A DNA stretch of 64,000 bases from positions 1 through 64,000 of the forward strand of contig MWST01000011.1 in assembly GCA_002050235.1 (NCBI GenBank). Direction: 5' to 3'. The translations under genes were made by a program, and so were the position numbers. The stretch comes from Polyangiaceae bacterium UTPRO1. GTDB lineage: Bacteria > Desulfobacterota > Binatia > UTPRO1. The notes under the pieces were generated by a model, which worked only from the letters and a program-made list of their open reading frames with translations, was not told the origin of the DNA and did no database searches. Shown here piece by piece: positions 1 through 8,838 of this stretch. How positions within the stretch are numbered: the first letter of the stretch is position 1; every line of letters begins with the position of its first letter.

Positions 1-65
1 CGATGCCCATCGGCTGGACGGGACCCGGCGCGACAACCGGACTCCTTCACAGGCTCCGAGGTCCG
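1..65. repeat. Direct repeat copy R1 (partner 9018..9082)
   Basis: About 59 of 65 bases match 9018..9082 without gaps. It may continue left of the window edge. The two copies enclose the SBBP gene and the DUF1566 triplication, so they could mark the edges of a duplicated or mobile segment. No terminal inverted repeats or recombinase were recognised. Confidence 0.75.
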
Positions 66-93
66 TGGTCGGTGTTTCGGCACTGCAGCATAG

Positions 94-231
94 CGGACCT
101 GGGGCGTGGCCTATCGCCTCTCCCACGAGGCGTGCGTCTTCCTCGATTGTACCGACGGCGTCGACCGCGGCCTCTACGGCCGGATCGCGATCGAGGTCGT
201 GACCGACGAGCGCGTCGCGACCTGCCGCTAG
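94..231 (+). pseudogene. C-terminal fragment of an unidentified protein
   Basis: An open frame with strong G/C-ending codon use encodes RTWGVAYRLSHEACVFLDCT and continues through GLYGRIAIEVV to a TAG at 229. The frame is closed upstream by a TAG at 91, just after repeat R1, so only about 45 residues remain. The composition looks like the tail of a folded secreted or extracytoplasmic protein with several cysteines. The likeliest reading is a gene cut by the rearrangement that placed R1 beside it. A short genuine gene starting at the GTG at 106 is possible. The family is not recognised. Its stop codon overlaps the stop of the convergent SBBP gene. Confidence 0.4.
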
Positions 232-3200
232 TCCAGGGTGACGTTGGCGATGGCGAGAATCTCGCGCAACCGCGGCAGCTCGTTCTCGAGCATCTGGTCG
301 ACGCGGCACGCGTGGCGGCGCGCGACGCAATCGGCGAGCGCGGCGAGCGAGCCGAGCGGCGGGGCTTCGAGCGCGGCGCATTCGCCGGCGGCGGCGTCGA
401 AGCCGAGGCCGGCGACGGCATTCGCGTCCGTGACCGTGAGCGGCGCCTTGCCGCAGCCTTTGCCGACCGCGGCCGCGAGCTTCGACGCGGCGCCGCTGCC
501 CGTCGCGGTGAGCTTGGCGACGAGCTTCGCGCAGGCCGCGCTCGCCTTCGCACGGCACTTGGCGTCGGCGGGCTTCACCTGGACGCAGGTCATGACCGCG
601 GCGGCGCACTTCTGGAAGGTCTTCATGCGCGCGCTCGCCAGCTTGGCGGCGGCCTTGGTGATCGCCTTCTGGCATTTGACGGCGGCTTTGGCGGCGGCGC
701 CGAGGTGCGCCCCGGCGCCGTCGGCGGGCGCGCCGAGGCACGGGAGCTCGCTCGCGGGATTGCGCCCCGCGAGCATCAGCAGCTCGGCGGCGCGCGGCAC
801 CTGGCTGCCGACGAGGTTCTCGGCCCGGCACGCGTGCTCGGCGAGCACGCAGCTCGCGACGTCGGCGACGGTCGTGAGCGCGGCGACGCCGCGGTCGGCG
901 CAGGCGCCCGTCTCGGATCCGTAGCCGAGCCCGGCCGCGTTCTTCAGGTCGTCGATCGTGAGCGGGGCCGTGGAGCACGCCTTCTGGATGCCGGCGGCGA
1001 GCTTCGTGTTCTCGCCGGGGAACTTGCCGAGCTCCTTCCCGCACGTCGCGGTCGCCTTCGCGGTGCACGCCGCGTCGCCCGGCTTCTGCTGTGCGCACGC
1101 GAAGGCGGCGAGGAGACACTTCTGGAGGTGCTTCTGCCGCGACCCGGCAGCTTTGGCGCCGGCCTTCGCGAGCGCCTTCGTGCACTTCGCGATCGCCTTT
1201 CCGGCCGCTGCCGACCCGAGCCCCTGCTCGGTGCCGTCGGCGCGCGGCGCGCAGTCGGAGTCCTTGCGGTCGACGGCGCCGTCGAAGTCGTTGTCGATGC
1301 AGTCGTCGCAGACCTCGGGCGCGGGCGTGAGGGTCGGCATCGGTGTCGGCGTGGCGGGCGGCTCGCCGTTGCGCGCCTCGGTGAGCTCGCCGAAGACGGC
1401 GAGGCCGCCGACGGGCACGCGGTCGACGCCGACCGGTCCGGTGAACTGATGGACGATCGACGCGTTCGCGACGTCGAAGGCGTACACCGCTCCCGGCGTG
1501 ACGTTGCCGATGCCCTCGCTCGCGCTCCAGAGCGTCTGGCCGTCGGGGTCGCGGCTCACGACGAAGAGGCTCGCCGCGGGCACCGCGGTGTAGGTCTTGG
1601 TCACGGTGCCGCTGGCGTTCACGCGCACCACGTCGCCGTTGGCGACGAAGGCGCCGTCGGCGAGCGCCCGGACGCCGTAGTCGCGGATGCCGTCGGCGTC
1701 GATGAACAGGTCGGCGCCCTGCGTGCGCGTGACGAGGTCGTACGTCGCGACGTCCTCGGTGTTCGAGGTGTAGAGGAGCGTCCGTTGGTCGGCGGCGAGG
1801 TCGATCCACATCGACCCGGTCGCGTGGACGAAGACGTCGTGGGGTGTGCCGGGCGTGCCGTTCGAGGCGTAGACCAGCACGTCGTTGGCGCCTTGGATCG
1901 TGCCGATGAACAACGTGTCGGCGGCGTCGAACACCAGCGACTGCGGTGCGGCATTGATGCCGCTCGCGAAGGTGCCGACGAGGCCGCCCGTCGCGTCGAA
2001 CTCGAAGATCGCGTTCTGCACGCGGTCGGCGACGAAGAGGTGGCCCGTCGAGTCGAAGGCGATGCCGGCGGGATACGTGCCGCCCGCGACGCTTCCCGAC
2101 GGCAGCGGGAGGGCCCGCACGAACGTGCCGGACGGCGTGTACTCGCGCACCTCGCCGAAGTCGACGGCGGACACGAAGACGTTGCCGGTGGTGTAGGCGA
2201 GGGCGGGCGGCGCCGTGCCGGCGATCTTCGCGATGAAGGCGTCGGCGTTGAAGTCGCCGCTTCCGTGCGTCGCTTGCGCGGCGTTCTTCACCGGAAAGTC
2301 GTTCGACGTCGTCTCGCCCGTGACGTAGGCGTTGCCGTTCGCGTCGACCGCAATCGCGCGGCCGATCTCGCCGCGCGTACCGCCGAGGTAGGTCGAGTAG
2401 ACGAGCGAGTTGCCGGCCGCCGCGATCTCGGCGACGATCGCCGCGGCGTTGTTCCCGCCCCGCCGGTTCTGGAGCGGGAGTCCGTTCTTCACCGGAAAGT
2501 CGTTGCCGTCGGTGCGACCGGTCACGTAGACGTTGCGGTTCGCGTCGAGCGCGATGCCGTTCACCTCGTCGGCGCCGCCGTTGCTGCTGCCGCCGAGGAA
2601 CGCGAGGAAGTCGACGCTCGTCCCGGCGGCGGCGATCTTCACGACGTAGCCGTCGGCGCCCCCGCGGAAGCTCGCGTTCGGCGCCGGCAGCGCGCCCGTC
2701 GCGGGCGTCGTGCCGAGAAAGTTGCTCGAGACGGTCTTGCCGCCGACGTAGGCGTTGCCGTCGCCGTCGACCGCGATCGCGTTGCCGTCGTCGACGTCGC
2801 CGCTGCCGCTGAGATACGTCGAGTAGACGAGCGCGTTGCCGGCGGCGTTCACCTTGGTGACGAAGCCGTCGGAGAAGCCGCGGAGCCCGTTGTTCGGTGC
2901 GGGCAGACCGCTCGCGACCGGGAAGTCCGACGACTGCGTGCGCCCGGTGACGTAGGCCTCGCCGCTTCGCACCGCAACCCCGAGTGCTTTTTCGGCGCTG
3001 CTACCGCCGAGGTAGAGCGAGTACACGAGCGAGCTGCCGTTCGTCGCGAGCTTGCTCACGAAGGCGTCGGTCAGGCCGTGCATGACGTTGTTGGCGAGGG
3101 TCCCCGCGACGGGGAAATCGTCGGAGAAGGTCTCGCCGACCACGTAGGCGTTTCGCGAGTCGTCGACCGCGATGGCGTTCGCCCGCTCGTTGGCGGCCGA

Positions 3201-4349
3201 GCCGCCGAGGAACGTCGAGTAGACGAGCGCGTTTCCCGCGGCGTTCAGCTTGGTCACGAAGCCGTCGGTGTTCTGGAGCGCGTTGTTCGGTGCCGGGAGC
3301 GGGTTCGCCGTCGGAAAGTCGACGGAGTCGGTCTCGCCCGCGACGTAGGCGCTGCCCTGGTCGTCGACGGCGATGCCGTTCCCGCCGTCGCTGCCGCTGC
3401 CGCCGAGGTAGGTCGAGTAGACGAGCGCCCCGTTCGCATCGAGCTTCGTCACGAACGCGTCTTGCGACCCCTGGAGCGCGTCGTTCGGATCAGTAAGTCC
3501 GCCGAGCGTCGGGAACGTCGCGGAGGTCGTCGTGCCGGTGACGTAGGCGTTGCCGTTCGCGTCGACCGCGATCGCGCGGCCGGCGTTGTTGCTGGGACCG
3601 CCGAGGTAGGTCGCGTAGCCGAGCACGGGGTCGATCACGAGCGGCTGCGTCGGATCGTGCGGGCCGAGCGCGAAGCGGACGCGCTGCTCGCCGTCGGCCG
3701 CGCCGCCCAAGACGAAGGCTGCGGCGACCGGCCGCCGCACGCCGTCGATCGTCTGGTGTGCGCTCGGCTTCCGCTGCACGAGGTCGCCGTCCGGCGTGTG
3801 CAGGACGAGCGTCCCGTCGTCGGCGATCGTCACGCGCTCCGCGCCGCGGAAGCCGAGCGTGATCGTCGCGGGGTCGACGCCCGGGGCCACGATCAGGTCG
3901 TACTCGAGCGCCTCGTCGGTACCGTAGAAGACCGCGTCGACGCCGGGGTAGACGCCGGCGCAGCGGACGCGGCCGAAGAGCGGCACGTCGGTGCGCCAGC
4001 GCGACGGGTCGGCGCCGAGGAGGTAGTTGGCGCGCCCCGCGAGCGGCATCTCGCCCGTCAGCATCGGATCCGGCGCACCGCCGACGAAGCGCATGCCGAC
4101 GCGCGCGTCGGCCGTCGCCGCGCGTGCGCGGTGCAGCCGCACCACGACCTCGTCGGGCCGCACGAAGAGTGCGTACTCGGGCCCGCGCGCCACGAAGGGA
4201 ACCCGCGCGTCGACCTGGCCGCGATTCGCCTCGAAGGCGAGCGGCAGGCGGAGCGCGGTCGTCGTTCGGTGCGGCGACGTCGCGTGTGCGACGGTCGCGA
4301 GCAACGCGAGGAGCAACGAGCCGAGGAGCCGAAGCGACGGAACGACCAT
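228..4349 (-). CDS. Secreted SBBP beta-propeller protein with Cys-rich helical C-terminus
   Basis: 1373 residues. The start at 4349 is preceded by GGAGG at good spacing and opens a signal peptide (MVVPSLRLLGSLLLALLATV, ending near AHA); an upstream in-frame ATG would lose this. Residues about 25-220 match the N-terminal domain usual in SBBP proteins ('EANRGQVDARV'). Seven SBBP repeats follow, of the type LVYSTYLGG...GNAYVTGET...DFPV, then an NHL-like stretch. After a Thr/Pro linker (TPTPMPTLTPAP) comes a 'CDDCIDNDFDGAVD' metal-binding-like motif. The last roughly 250 residues are two Ala/Lys/Cys-rich helical modules (KCTKALAKAGAK, HLQKCLLAAFACAQQKPGDA). These resemble the N-terminal modules of the nearby DUF1566 proteins. 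It is probably exported and surface-associated; ligand unknown. No transmembrane anchor or LPXTG motif is visible. Confidence 0.88.
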   Translation of the reverse strand: MVVPSLRLLGSLLLALLATVAHATSPHRTTTALRLPLAFEANRGQVDARVPFVARGPEYALFVRPDEVVVRLHRARAATADARVGMRFVGGAPDPMLTGEMPLAGRANYLLGADPSRWRTDVPLFGRVRCAGVYPGVDAVFYGTDEALEYDLIVAPGVDPATITLGFRGAERVTIADDGTLVLHTPDGDLVQRKPSAHQTIDGVRRPVAAAFVLGGAADGEQRVRFALGPHDPTQPLVIDPVLGYATYLGGPSNNAGRAIAVDANGNAYVTGTTTSATFPTLGGLTDPNDALQGSQDAFVTKLDANGALVYSTYLGGSGSDGGNGIAVDDQGSAYVAGETDSVDFPTANPLPAPNNALQNTDGFVTKLNAAGNALVYSTFLGGSAANERANAIAVDDSRNAYVVGETFSDDFPVAGTLANNVMHGLTDAFVSKLATNGSSLVYSLYLGGSSAEKALGVAVRSGEAYVTGRTQSSDFPVASGLPAPNNGLRGFSDGFVTKVNAAGNALVYSTYLSGSGDVDDGNAIAVDGDGNAYVGGKTVSSNFLGTTPATGALPAPNASFRGGADGYVVKIAAAGTSVDFLAFLGGSSNGGADEVNGIALDANRNVYVTGRTDGNDFPVKNGLPLQNRRGGNNAAAIVAEIAAAGNSLVYSTYLGGTRGEIGRAIAVDANGNAYVTGETTSNDFPVKNAAQATHGSGDFNADAFIAKIAGTAPPALAYTTGNVFVSAVDFGEVREYTPSGTFVRALPLPSGSVAGGTYPAGIAFDSTGHLFVADRVQNAIFEFDATGGLVGTFASGINAAPQSLVFDAADTLFIGTIQGANDVLVYASNGTPGTPHDVFVHATGSMWIDLAADQRTLLYTSNTEDVATYDLVTRTQGADLFIDADGIRDYGVRALADGAFVANGDVVRVNASGTVTKTYTAVPAASLFVVSRDPDGQTLWSASEGIGNVTPGAVYAFDVANASIVHQFTGPVGVDRVPVGGLAVFGELTEARNGEPPATPTPMPTLTPAPEVCDDCIDNDFDGAVDRKDSDCAPRADGTEQGLGSAAAGKAIAKCTKALAKAGAKAAGSRQKHLQKCLLAAFACAQQKPGDAACTAKATATCGKELGKFPGENTKLAAGIQKACSTAPLTIDDLKNAAGLGYGSETGACADRGVAALTTVADVASCVLAEHACRAENLVGSQVPRAAELLMLAGRNPASELPCLGAPADGAGAHLGAAAKAAVKCQKAITKAAAKLASARMKTFQKCAAAVMTCVQVKPADAKCRAKASAACAKLVAKLTATGSGAASKLAAAVGKGCGKAPLTVTDANAVAGLGFDAAAGECAALEAPPLGSLAALADCVARRHACRVDQMLENELPRLREILAIANVTLD

Positions 4350-4617
4350 GCTGACCTCCGAGCGTGAGGTCGCTCTAGCAGGGTTCGGCGCGCCGCGTCC
4401 ACGCGAGTGGGCGGAGCGGAGGTGGAAACGCAGCGATCTCCGCACCCAAAACCGCCGCTCCACATCGCGCCGCACTGGATCGAGGCCGTCCATAACCGAC
4501 AACGCCGTCACTCAGCCACCGCCATGCTGAGTCCGGTCGACTGCGAGGACCGCTTCGACAACCGCCGCGCAGCGGCATAACTCAGGTGCCTGCGCGACCG
4601 GAGCAAGACCAGACCCG
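4350..4617. promoter_or_regulatory. Divergent intergenic region between the SBBP gene and DUF1566 copy 1
   Basis: About 270 bases separate the minus-strand SBBP start from the conserved leader of the plus-strand DUF1566 gene. Promoters for both directions should lie here. The SBBP Shine-Dalgarno lies just inside this stretch. I see no clear -35/-10 pair and no palindromic operator. Confidence 0.4.
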
Positions 4618-4774
4618 GTTGCTCCGGAATGGCGCAGGCGGCGCCCTTCTGGATGAACCGCAACGGCCCTGGTGTCCGCGACACGGGAAAATCCTTCGTC
4701 CGCTGCGCCCACGTGTGCTAGTCGGCGTGCGTTCCCGGCCACATCGGCCAGCATCCGAAAGGGGGATCTGTTCC
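4618..4774 (+). promoter_or_regulatory. Conserved 5' leader 1 with long hairpin
   Basis: The stem arms are 4618-4636 and 4642-4660 around the loop AGGCG. The pairing is imperfect but the same design recurs in the other two leaders. Downstream, AATCCTTC near 4690 can pair only weakly with the ribosome binding site at 4758-4770, because the site reads GGGGGATCT instead of GGAGGATCT. Sequence conservation right up to the ATG in all three copies suggests a transcribed, functional leader. No known riboswitch class was matched. Confidence 0.45.
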
Positions 4775-5707
4775 ATGGCGTTTCGTCCGCTTACGATCGC
4801 ACTCGTTCTCGCTGCCGCGCTCGGCGCCGCGGCTTCCATCGCCGGCGCTGCCGCCACGCCCGAGCAGAAGTGCCGGGCCGCCAAGAACAAGACCGCCGGC
4901 CAGTACGCCGCCTGCCGCCAGAACGCGGAGGCGAAGCTCGCAACCGGCGGCGATGTATCGAAGTACGCAGTCGCCATCGGCAAGTGCGCCAGCAACTTTG
5001 CAAAGGCCTGGCAGAAGGCGAGCGCCAAGGCTGCCGCGAAGGGAGCCACGTGCTTCGAAGCACCGCTTGCGGCCGGCGATTTCCAGACGGTTATCGATGC
5101 GGCTACGACCAGCGTCGCGACCGCACTCGCCGGCGGCGGTCTCGCGCCGCCCAGTGCCCGGCTGCTCAAGACAGGTCAGACGACGAGCTACGGCCCCGGC
5201 AGTGACGGTGATTTCCGGAAGGGCTTCGGGCGCTACTTTACCGACAACGGCGATGGCACGATCACCGACAACGTGACCGGCCTCATGTGGGAGAAGAAGA
5301 GCGACGACGGTTCCATCCACGACAAGGACAACACCTACACCTGGGGCATGGATACGAGTCCGTACACGATGGACGGGACCATGGTGACGGAGTTCCTGGC
5401 AGCGCTGAACACTGGCAGCGGCTTCGCAGGGCACACCGATTGGCGGATCCCGAACATAAACGAGCTGCAGAGCCTCGTCGACTACGAAAACTGGAACCCG
5501 ACGGTGGACCCTGCTTTCAATACGACCTGTTCGGAAGGCTGCACAGTGACGACGTGTAGTTGTACGCAGTCGAGCCTCTACTGGTCGTCCACTACGTACC
5601 AGTTCAGTCCCGACTTCGCGTGGTTCGTGTCCTTCTTCGACGGCGACGTGAGCCCGAACGGCAAGGGCTACGACAACTACGTTCGCGCCGTGCGCGGCGG
5701 CTCATGA
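4775..5707 (+). CDS. Secreted DUF1566/Lcl-domain protein, copy 1
   Basis: 310 residues. A signal peptide (MAFRPLTIALVLAAALGAAA) is followed by an Ala/Lys-rich helical module with cysteines at 33, 48, 71 and 93. A DUF1566 (Lcl_C, C-type-lectin-like) domain runs from about residue 135 to the end, with the hallmarks GDGTITDNVTGLMWEKK, HTDWRIPNINEL, YWSSTT and YVRAVRGGS. A Cys cluster (252, 256, 261, 263) lies just before the variable stretch at residues 267-300. The start was chosen for the signal peptide and the purine-rich site at 4758. DUF1566 domains are extracellular binding modules; the ligand is unknown. Against copy 2 the C-terminal stretch differs almost only at codon positions 1 and 2 (see findings). 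The remains of an Avd-like ORF follow 21 bases downstream. Confidence 0.9.
   Translation: MAFRPLTIALVLAAALGAAASIAGAAATPEQKCRAAKNKTAGQYAACRQNAEAKLATGGDVSKYAVAIGKCASNFAKAWQKASAKAAAKGATCFEAPLAAGDFQTVIDAATTSVATALAGGGLAPPSARLLKTGQTTSYGPGSDGDFRKGFGRYFTDNGDGTITDNVTGLMWEKKSDDGSIHDKDNTYTWGMDTSPYTMDGTMVTEFLAALNTGSGFAGHTDWRIPNINELQSLVDYENWNPTVDPAFNTTCSEGCTVTTCSCTQSSLYWSSTTYQFSPDFAWFVSFFDGDVSPNGKGYDNYVRAVRGGS
5573..5674 (+). other. Candidate DGR variable region 1 (VR1)
   Basis: 34 codons between CAG-TCG and AAC-TAC-GTT. Against the same stretch of copy 2 (7136..7237), 16 codons differ by 27 nucleotides, and only one of these is at a third position. Flanking codons are identical on the left. The right flank, GCCGTGCGCGGCGGCTC, is nearly pure G/C, as expected of an initiation-of-mutagenic-homing site. 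The pattern is seen directly; the mechanism is inferred. Confidence 0.55.
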
Positions 5708-5728
5708 TCGGTCATTGGAGCAACGGCC

Positions 5729-5950
5729 ATGGCGCAGGGCGAGCATCTGCCGATCTACAAGGCTGCGTACGACGTCTGCCTGTACGTCGAGCAACTCGTC
5801 CGGAAGTTGTCGCGCTTCCACGAGTAGGCCACCGGCCAGGATCTCCGTGAGAGCGCCCGCGAGGTGCCGAAGCTGATCGTGCGCGCCGACAGCCGGCGCG
5901 AGAAGCGCGCCGTGCTCTTCCAGATCCGCGAGGAGGTCGAGGCACTCTAA
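5729..5950 (+). pseudogene. Avd/S23-like four-helix-bundle ORF, interrupted (unit 1)
   Basis: The frame begins ATGGCGCAGGGCGAGCATCT and would encode a 73-residue homologue of the intact ORF at 7292. An in-frame TAG at 5825 replaces the Tyr codon of the intact copy, giving RKLSRFHE-stop. The rest (GQDLRESAREVPKLIVRADS, then EKRAVLFQIREEVEAL) is otherwise readable to the TAA at 5948. The ribosome binding site GGAG is retained. It therefore makes at most a 32-residue peptide. Confidence 0.7.
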
Positions 5951-6160
5951 GGTCCTGCCGCGTCTCTGAGGGAGCTTGGCGCCCGCACCTGTCGGCGCGC
6001 GGTGCGCTCGACGAGCGCGGACGCACGGTGGCCCTTACCGCGCGCGCTCCGACAAGCAGTAGAGCTCCCGCCGATCGCTACTCGTTGGGACTCTTACCCG
6101 TTGTAACCCGCGGCGCTGCCTCCGCGACGGAGCCCGGGGCAGCGGGGCTCGGACAGACCC
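5951..6160 (+). other. Spacer with decayed Avd tail, shared between units 1 and 2
   Basis: This spacer is clearly homologous to 7514..7731. Its first bases, read with single-base frame corrections, would extend the Avd-like protein (EALKVLLRL then KELGA), so a longer ancestral Avd was probably shortened before duplication. The rest is GC-rich with no convincing ORF and no copy of the variable region, so no template repeat is seen here. Confidence 0.4.
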
Positions 6161-6319
6161 GGTTGCACCGGAAGGGCACAGGCGGTGCCCTTTCGGTGCA
6201 ACCGCAAACGCCCTGGTGTCCGCGATACGTGAAGATCCTTCTTCCGATGCGCCTGCGCGTGATAGTCGGCGTGCGTTCCCGGCCATATCGGCCAGCATCC
6301 GAAAGGAGGATCTACCCCC
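6161..6319 (+). promoter_or_regulatory. Conserved 5' leader 2: 19-bp hairpin and anti-Shine-Dalgarno
   Basis: Arms 6161-6179 and 6185-6203 pair at 18 of 19 positions, plus one G-U, around the loop AGGCG. The segment AGATCCTTCTT (6233-6243) is complementary over 11 pairs, one of them wobble, to AAAGGAGGATCT (6302-6313), which contains the ribosome binding site of the gene at 6320. A hairpin followed by a sequestering pairing fits a translational switch or thermosensor. No T-tract follows the hairpin, so it is not a typical intrinsic terminator. Confidence 0.5.
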
Positions 6320-7270
6320 ATGCTGTTTCGTCCGCTTACGACCGTCCTCGCTCTAGCCGCTGCGCTCGGCGCCGCGGCCTCCATCGCCGGCGCTGCCGCC
6401 ACGCCCCAGCAGAAGTGCCAGGCCGCCAAGAACAAGACCGCCGGCCAGTACGCCGCCTGCCGCCAGAACGCGGAGGCGAAGCTCGCAACCGGCGGTGACA
6501 CGACGAAGTACGCGGTAGCTATCGGCAAGTGCGCAAGCAAGTTCACGAAAGCCTGGCAGAAGGCGAGCGCCAAGGCCGCCGCGAAGGGAGCCACGTGCTT
6601 CGAAGCACCGCTTGCAGCCGACGATTTCCAGACGGTGATCGACGCAGCTACGACCAACGTCGCAACCGCACTCGCCGGCGATGGCTTCACCGGATGCACT
6701 GATACTGGTGGCACTGGTGGCGGGCTGCTGAAGAGCGGCCAGACGACGAGCTACGGTCCCGGCAGCGACGGTGATCTCCGGAAGGGCGTCGCGCGCTCCT
6801 ACACCGACAACGGCGACGGCACGATCACCGACAACGTGACCGGCCTCATGTGGGAGAAGAAGAGCGACGACGGTTCCATTCACGACAAGGACAACATGTA
6901 CGCCTGGGGCACGGCGTCGCCCCCGTACACGATGAACGGGACCATGGTGACGACGTTCCTGGCAGCGCTGAACGCTGGCGGCGGCTTCGCAGGGCACACC
7001 GATTGGCGGATCCCGAATCGATTCGAACTCGAAAGTCTGTTGGATTTGGAGAACGTGAACCCGGCGGTGAACTCTGTTTTCAATACGAGCTGTACGGGCG
7101 GCTGCACGGTGACGACGTGTAGTTGTACGCAGTCGTTCAGCTACTGGTCGTCCACTACGTACCAGAACCTTCCCGACCTTGCGTGGTACGTGACCTTCAA
7201 CTTCGGCATCGTGAACGGGACCGGCAAGAGCAGCCTCAACTACGTTCGTGCCGTGCGCGGCGGCTCATAA
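6320..7270 (+). CDS. Secreted DUF1566/Lcl-domain protein, copy 2
   Basis: 316 residues. Signal peptide (MLFRPLTTVLALAAALGAAA), four-Cys helical module, a short inserted linker (GCTDTGGTGGG) absent from the other copies, then the DUF1566 domain ending YVRAVRGGS. The start is supported by GGAGGATCT ten bases upstream. The mid-domain segment NRFELESLLDLENVNPAV differs from copies 1 and 3 with ordinary third-position changes. The C-terminal segment after YWSSTTYQ differs from copy 1 almost only at codon positions 1 and 2. It is followed by the only intact Avd-like ORF, 21 bases downstream, and is probably co-transcribed with it. It is likely an exported binding protein; the ligand is unknown. Confidence 0.9.
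   Translation: MLFRPLTTVLALAAALGAAASIAGAAATPQQKCQAAKNKTAGQYAACRQNAEAKLATGGDTTKYAVAIGKCASKFTKAWQKASAKAAAKGATCFEAPLAADDFQTVIDAATTNVATALAGDGFTGCTDTGGTGGGLLKSGQTTSYGPGSDGDLRKGVARSYTDNGDGTITDNVTGLMWEKKSDDGSIHDKDNMYAWGTASPPYTMNGTMVTTFLAALNAGGGFAGHTDWRIPNRFELESLLDLENVNPAVNSVFNTSCTGGCTVTTCSCTQSFSYWSSTTYQNLPDLAWYVTFNFGIVNGTGKSSLNYVRAVRGGS
7136..7237 (+). other. Candidate DGR variable region 2 (VR2)
   Basis: 34 codons between CAG-TCG and AAC-TAC-GTT, aligned without gaps to VR1. The remaining AAC, AGC, ACC and TTC codons are what substitution of AAC-type template codons would give. Conserved framework codons (TGG, TCG, TCC, GCG, GGC, AAG) are unchanged. Confidence 0.55.
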
Positions 7271-7291
7271 TCGATCATTGGAGCAACGGTC

Positions 7292-7513
7292 ATGGCGCAC
7301 ACCGAGCACCTGCCGATCTACAAGGCCGCGTACGGCTTCTGCCTGTACGTCGAGCAACTCGTCCGGAAGTTGCCGCGCTACCACGAGTACGCCGCCGGCC
7401 AGAATCTCCGTGAGAGCGCCCGCGCGGTGCTGAAGCTGATCGTGCGCGCCAACAGCCGGCGCGAGAAGCGCGCGGTGCTCTTCCGGATCCGCGAGGAGGT
7501 CGAGGCGCTCTGA
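7292..7513 (+). CDS. Avd/S23-like four-helix-bundle protein (short)
   Basis: 73 residues starting MAHTEHLPIYKAAYGFCLYV, with LVRKLPRYHEYAAGQNLRES and a C-terminal RREKRAVLFRIREEVEAL. The pattern LPIYK...LVRKLP...LRESA...REKR is that of the 23S-rRNA-intervening-sequence protein / Avd family. Avd is the accessory protein that binds the reverse transcriptase in DGRs. Typical Avd proteins are about 110-125 residues, so the last helix or helices are missing; a TGA follows directly, and the downstream bases can be read as a decayed continuation. GGAG lies nine bases before the ATG. It follows the DUF1566 gene by 21 bases. It could instead be a standalone S23-type protein. Function in this truncated form is doubtful. 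Confidence 0.65.
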   Translation: MAHTEHLPIYKAAYGFCLYVEQLVRKLPRYHEYAAGQNLRESARAVLKLIVRANSRREKRAVLFRIREEVEAL

Positions 7514-7731
7514 GGCACTCTAAGGTCCTGCTGCGTCTCTGAAGGAGTTTGGCGCCCGCACCTGTCGGCGCGGTGCGCTCTACGTGCGGGGACGCGCGGT
7601 GGCCCTTACCGCGCGTGCTCCGACAAGCAACAGAGCCTCCGCCGATCGCTACTCGTTGGGACTCTTACCCGTCGTCACCCGAGGCGCTGCTCCCGCGACG
7701 GAGTCCGGGGCAGCGCGGCTCGGGTAGACCC
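7514..7731 (+). other. Spacer between units 2 and 3
   Basis: Homologous to 5951..6160. It begins with the decayed Avd continuation, preceded by a small local duplication (GAGGCGCTC then GAGGCACTC). No variable-region copy and no other convincing coding sequence is seen. Confidence 0.4.
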
Positions 7732-7890
7732 GGTTGCTCCAGAAGGGCGCAGGCGGCGCCCTTCCGGCGGGACCGCAACCGCCATGGTGTCCGCGACGCG
7801 GGAAGATCCTTCGTCCGCTGTGCCTGCGTGTGCTAGTCGGCGTGCGTTCCCGGCCACATCGGCCAGCATCCGAAAAGGAGGATCTGTCCC
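7732..7890 (+). promoter_or_regulatory. Conserved 5' leader 3 with hairpin and anti-Shine-Dalgarno
   Basis: Arms 7732-7750 and 7756-7774 enclose the same AGGCG loop. AGATCCTTC (7804-7812) pairs over nine bases, one of them wobble, with GGAGGATCT (7877-7885), the ribosome binding site of the gene at 7891. The design matches leader 2 despite several base changes. Confidence 0.5.
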
Positions 7891-8823
7891 ATGCTGTTTC
7901 GTCCGCTTACGACCGTCCTCGCTCTAGCCGCCGCTCTCGGCGCCGCGGCCTCCATCGTCGGAGCTGCCGCCACGCCCGAGCAGAAGTGCCGGGCCGCCAA
8001 GAACAGGACCGCCGGCCAGTACGCCGCCTGCCGCCAGAACGCCGAGGCACGACTCGCAACCGGCGGCGATGTATCGAAGTACGCCGTTGCCATCGGCAAG
8101 TGCGCGAACAACTTTGCAAAGGCCTGGCAGAAGGCGAGCGCCAAGGCCGCCGCGAAGGGAGCCTCGTGCTTCGAAGCACCGCTTGCGGCCAGCGATTTCC
8201 AGACGGTGATCGACGCGGCTACGACCAGCGTCGCGACCGCCCTCGCCGGCGACGGTCTCGCCCCTCCTTCTAACGGGCTGCTGAAGACCGGTCAGACGAC
8301 GAGCTACGGCCCCGGCAGTGACGGCGATCTCCAGAAAGGTACCGCGCGCTCCTACACCGACAACGGCGACGGCACGATCACCGATAACGTGACCGGACTC
8401 ATGTGGGAGAAGAAGAGCGACGACGGTTCCATCCACGACAAGGACAACAAGTACACCTGGGGCATGCTGTCGAGTCCGTACACGATGAACGGGACCATGG
8501 TGACGGAATTCCTGGCAGCGCTGAACAGCGACGACGGCTTCGCCGGGTACACCGATTGGCGGATCCCGAACATAAACGAGCTGCAGAGCCTCGTCGACCA
8601 CGAGAAGTTGGGCCCGGCGGTGAACCCTGCTTTCTATATGGATTGTACGGGAGGCTGCACGGTGACGACGTGTAGCTGTACGCAGGGGGGCGACTACTGG
8701 TCGTCCACTACATCGCAGAACATAATTGGCGCCGCGCGGAACGTGAGCTTCTCGGCCGGTTACGAGTCCTTTAAGGGCAAGAGCGAGCCCCTCTACGTTC
8801 GTGCCGTGCGCGGCGGCTCGTGA
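7891..8823 (+). CDS. Secreted DUF1566/Lcl-domain protein, copy 3
   Basis: 310 residues with the same architecture: signal peptide MLFRPLTTVLALAAALGAAA, helical module with four cysteines, DUF1566 domain ending YVRAVRGGS. The mid-domain NINELQSLVD matches copy 1. The C-terminal stretch (GGDYWSSTTSQNIIGAARNV) differs from both others, including at third codon positions, so it came from another template or has drifted longer. AGGAGGATCT precedes the start. The Avd-like ORF expected downstream is missing because homology stops at 8838. Confidence 0.9.
   Translation: MLFRPLTTVLALAAALGAAASIVGAAATPEQKCRAAKNRTAGQYAACRQNAEARLATGGDVSKYAVAIGKCANNFAKAWQKASAKAAAKGASCFEAPLAASDFQTVIDAATTSVATALAGDGLAPPSNGLLKTGQTTSYGPGSDGDLQKGTARSYTDNGDGTITDNVTGLMWEKKSDDGSIHDKDNKYTWGMLSSPYTMNGTMVTEFLAALNSDDGFAGYTDWRIPNINELQSLVDHEKLGPAVNPAFYMDCTGGCTVTTCSCTQGGDYWSSTTSQNIIGAARNVSFSAGYESFKGKSEPLYVRAVRGGS
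8689..8790 (+). other. Candidate DGR variable region 3 (VR3)
   Basis: 34 codons aligned without gaps to VR1 and VR2. Against VR2 I count about 29 differences at codon positions 1 and 2 and 10 at position 3. The bias is present but weaker than between VR1 and VR2. Confidence 0.35.
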
Positions 8824-8838
8824 TCGATCATTGGAGCA

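Follow-up and report, generated by a model that had tools for sequence, protein, structure and literature searches.

The tandem DUF1566 genes of Polyangiaceae bacterium UTPRO1 raise the question of how one short coding segment can differ strongly between neighbouring gene copies while its third codon positions stay almost constant. The window analyzed here is a stretch of 64,000 nucleotides (positions 1 to 64,000 of MWST01000011.1) and represents contig C1; the draft genome amounts to 3.8 Mb in 45 contigs and is 89% complete. When bp 5573..5674 of gene 1 are compared with bp 7136..7237 of gene 2, 16 codons differ by 27 substitutions, distributed 13/13/1 over the three codon positions, exactly as counted in the initial annotation; nearly all of the changed sites alter the amino acid. 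Third-base changes are common elsewhere, as had also been observed: outside of the variable repeat (VR), the two genes differ at 28/28/50 first, second and third positions (Fisher p = 7e-6 for the segment against the rest of the genes). Fourfold sites differ at 21/121 positions outside of the VR and at 1/20 inside it, the latter figure being based on few sites. The explanation originally offered was that these are satellite or relic targets of a diversity-generating retroelement (DGR). Based on the results described below, the three genes are very probably remote DGR targets, written from a cassette carried on another contig of the same genome.

The tandem array of Lcl_C genes

The array occupies bp 4610..8838 of the window (all features on the forward strand) and consists of units of approximately 1.55 kb, each containing a target gene and an avd fragment; bp 4610-7285 match bp 6154-8838 with 84.5% identity. 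Gene 1 (4775..5707) encodes a secreted protein with a C-terminal Lcl_C (DUF1566) domain (PF07603 at 5255-5695, E-value: 1.9e-30), the N-terminus of which appears by eye to be signal peptide-like. Gene 2 (6320..7270) and gene 3 (7891..8823) encode secreted proteins of the same type (PF07603 E-values: 3.1e-27 and, at 8371-8811, 2.2e-26). In gene 2, Lcl_C spans residues 167-313 of 316, so that the VR lies at the 3' end of the gene. The three VRs are located at 5564..5706 (VR1), 7127..7268 (VR2) and 8680..8822 (VR3). The extent of the segment first recognized was underestimated, as the true repeat is about 143 nt in length. The G/C-only stretch reported to follow the region exists, but is only about 10 nt long (GCGCGGCGGC). 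A search for hairpins behind the VR found no clear DNA hairpin; a short palindrome (TGATCGATCA) is present in some copies along with the 10-nt G/C run.

A broken avd copy follows each of the first two genes. In the copy behind gene 1 (5729..5968), which is 92.5% identical to the avd gene of contig C24 over 240 nt, codon 33 is an in-frame stop. Behind gene 2 (7292..7541, 92.4% identity to the C24 gene), an 11-nt insertion cuts the open reading frame short at 73 aa, and this 73-aa product retains a match to bAvd (E-value: 1.8e-4). Because both copies are approximately 92% like C24 avd, the duplicated unit was target plus avd, with the spare avd copies having decayed.

Both spacers of the array contain inverted repeats with 20-nt arms that are 5 nt apart (6160-6204, 95% complementary, and 7731-7775, 80% complementary), which are either terminator-like or a piece of a repeated element. 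Upstream of gene 1, the adjoining gene on the opposite strand (231-4511) encodes a 1427-aa protein with a DUF7948 domain and six SBBP beta-propeller repeats.

The cassette on contig C24 and its template

The initial annotation was correct in stating that the window holds neither a reverse transcriptase (RT) nor a template repeat (TR). A search of the whole genome for a DGR-type RT and for a template that matches the segment with adenine at the variable sites recovered both of these on contig C24. On a single strand, the start of this contig carries an Lcl_C target represented by its 3' end (24..275), Avd (358..762), an adenine-rich TR (936..1078) and RT (1172..2749). The RT search of the draft genome gave a single match (C24:1388-2005); a further RT could be missing from the assembly, and C24 itself starts inside its target gene. 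The 525-aa RT has as its best solved relative 8ub7, the BPP-1 DGR enzyme (E-value: 9.3e-41), matches PHROG 1423 (3e-96) and contains the DGR-like motif LPIGNLTSQ. The C24 Avd protein exceeds the cut-off for bAvd (E-value: 1e-15), matches phrog_3206 ("Avd protein of DGR", 9e-29) and gives an E-value of 3.7e-17 with DivGenRetAVD, which is under that model's own cut-off. Only distant relatives of the RT were found in a scan of named genomes (all from other groups) and on viral contigs (27-40% identity). The predicted structures of the RT (mean pLDDT 46) and of the gene 2 product (mean pLDDT 39) are too poor for a fold search.

The TR, which lies between Avd and RT (C24:936-1078), is 84-86% identical to the VRs of the C24 target, gene 1 (85%) and gene 2. 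AAC and AAT together account for 15 of its 46 codons, and its adenines are distributed 20/23/0 over codon positions one, two and three. The lack of third-position adenines in the TR explains the frozen third bases of the segment.

Template and VRs were compared over 138 nt, comprising 43 adenines and 95 other sites. VR1 differs from the TR at 21/43 adenines and 1/95 other sites (Fisher p = 6e-12), VR2 at 17/43 and 4/95 (Fisher p = 4e-7) and VR3 at 22/43 and 18/95 (p = 1.6e-4). This bias persists when only codon positions one and two are considered (p = 5.7e-8, 2.3e-5 and 3.8e-4 for genes 1, 2 and 3, respectively), and all three other bases occur in the VRs at TR adenine sites. The C24 target differs from the TR at 20 adenines and at none of the other sites. 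For the remaining loci, changes at adenines and elsewhere number 18 and 4 (C43a), 12 and 9 (C12) and 22 and 22 (C29). The VRs of the window are remote from the cassette and show adenine-specific differences to its TR. With Avd, TR and RT in the genome and TR-VR differences concentrated on TR adenines, the DGR reading put forward at the outset is upheld.

A search of the genome with the TR, excluding the TR itself, identified eight places: the C24 VR, the three VRs of the window, two on C43, one on C12 and one on C29. Similarity to the TR is only 69% for the C29 place and for the second of the genes on C43. Three contigs begin or end within target genes (C8:32-415, C12:1-272 and C24:1-272), which leaves room for error in the count of targets; the breaks probably arose during assembly because the copies are so similar.

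Rewriting, relics and other explanations

At 94/95 and 91/95 non-adenine sites, respectively, genes 1 and 2 agree with the present TR, so that they were probably rewritten recently. Gene 3, with 18 non-adenine changes beside its adenine bias, is an older or drifting target; judging from this one genome, it may have drifted or may last have been written by a different version of the template. These patterns bear on the possibility that all three genes are relics, diversified while each unit stood in or beside a cassette and no longer reached by the C24 system, such that their VRs are fossils. Neither avd copy of the array is intact, gene 3 has many non-adenine differences and one relative (G050) holds a decayed cassette with a TR-like relic, all of which would be expected of relics. 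VR1, on the other hand, is nearly identical to the present TR outside of its adenines while genes 1 and 2 have diverged at fourfold sites outside of the VR, and it therefore looks to have been rewritten after duplication. We consider it likely, from the sequences of this one genome, that this applies to the VRs of both genes 1 and 2. A relic origin for the set is thus unlikely: of the two terms first proposed, "satellite" is appropriate, while "relic" does not suit genes 1 and 2 and fits gene 3 at most.

Two explanations that dispense with mutagenic copying can be given very little weight. Shuffling of the segment by gene conversion among paralogues would be compatible with the conserved VR frame common to several of them, but conversion makes no new bases at template adenines, where the VRs show all three alternatives; the match to the TR rules it out, and we regard it as highly improbable. 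Plain positive selection on a ligand-binding surface would agree with the amino acid-changing nature of nearly all changed sites. As a sole cause it is also ruled out by the TR match and is hardly credible, given that the changes track the adenines of a separate template even within codon positions one and two (p = 5.7e-8 for gene 1) and that RT, Avd and TR are present in the genome. Selection may still act on the variants that a DGR generates.

The favoured reading, that the array is written from C24, suggests the following mechanism. The single C24 cassette would yield TR RNA, which Avd and RT would copy while placing random bases opposite template adenines; the cDNA would then replace the 3' ends of target genes, both on C24 itself (in cis) and, as the sequence comparisons suggest, in genes 1-3 (in trans). 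A TR rich in AAC-type codons and lacking third-position adenines would confine changes to codon positions one and two, and such codons could not turn into stops. The array would have arisen by tandem duplication of the target-avd unit, followed by decay of the extra avd copies; rewriting of the VRs in genes 1 and 2 would be recent or still ongoing. The products are predicted to be secreted, diversified binding proteins.

Relatives and known systems

We searched 58 genomes, mostly of the same class, for the RT, and found full-length versions (55-62% identity) in six besides that of UTPRO1, one of these from the same genus. All six cassettes have the order target, Avd, TR, RT, with VR changes mostly at TR adenines (e.g. 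21/21 and 23/24). Many genomes of the class carry Lcl_C genes without this RT, so a DGR cannot be deduced from the Lcl_C domain by itself. TR searches of the six relatives and one more genome of the genus gave one to three places each, counting the TR itself, although some places will have been missed as the query for several relatives was another relative's TR. Compared with the one or two places in most relatives with the RT, the eight in UTPRO1 are an unusually large target set for one genome. In G050, a decayed second cassette (G050:C3:64000-70000) comprises the start of avd, a TR-like relic and the ends of RT with the middle missing; the TR-like relic has kept most adenines (8/40 changed, compared to 22/102 other sites).

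Residues 428-503 of the C24 RT show weak likeness to MutS domain I (MutS_I, E-value: 0.003), and a match was found in five of six aligned RTs (best E-value: 1.8e-5, among the relatives). A Phe/Tyr-x-Glu-like motif (RFVEL and variants) is retained in this tail and resembles the MutS mismatch motif. In the RT of G035:C48, an in-frame TAG is located at about codon 416, directly before the tail. We had considered the tail as a new feature, but dropped this as MSL (PF01624, MutS domain I) is already recorded as a DGR accessory (PMC10053308). In both cases a MutS_I-like domain is tied to a DGR; in C24, it forms the C-terminal part of the RT itself. We tentatively raise the possibility that six to eight secreted lectin-like proteins, encoded at dispersed loci, are all written in trans by one cassette and that the MutS_I-like tail of the RT may assist in retaining or positioning mismatched cDNA during homing.

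More generally, a third-base freeze noticed in the bare sequence can be used to predict a mutation system whose enzyme is encoded at another place in the genome. The targets form a gradient from fresh to drifting, which should be useful for determining for how long remote targets can still be written, as should the array for asking what becomes of hitch-hiking avd copies.

In the DGR of Bordetella phage BPP-1, the gene order is Mtd target, Avd, TR, RT. The UTPRO1 system shares this order, a homologous RT, adenine-specific TR-to-VR changes and the 3'-terminal position of the VR within its target. In contrast to that phage system, it is found on bacterial contigs with a DUF1566 lectin-like target, its RT has a MutS_I-like tail and several targets lie away from the cassette. 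DUF1566, which has a CLec fold (PMC6642488), is reported as the most frequent DGR target domain (PMC6642488 and PMC4159848, the latter for human microbiomes), and DUF1566 targets with multiple VRs are known from, for example, Stenotrophomonas sp. SKA14 (PMC6642488). Systems of the SKA14 type resemble that of UTPRO1 in having DUF1566 targets and several VRs per system, while UTPRO1 differs in having three targets in a tandem array off the cassette contig, accompanied by broken avd copies. Variable proteins encoded far from the RT have been described in cyanobacteria (PMC7517822), Treponema denticola (PMC4891356) and Thiohalocapsa PB-PSB1 (PMC10907252), all of which differ from UTPRO1 in lineage, RT and target N-terminal domain. 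In PB-PSB1, loci were duplicated and redundant DGR parts decayed (PMC10907252), so that it shares with UTPRO1 remote targets, locus duplication and the decay of spare DGR parts. Since precedents exist for DUF1566 targets, for targets remote from the cassette and for a MutS-like DGR accessory, the UTPRO1 machine is of a known type and is itself well stocked with targets.
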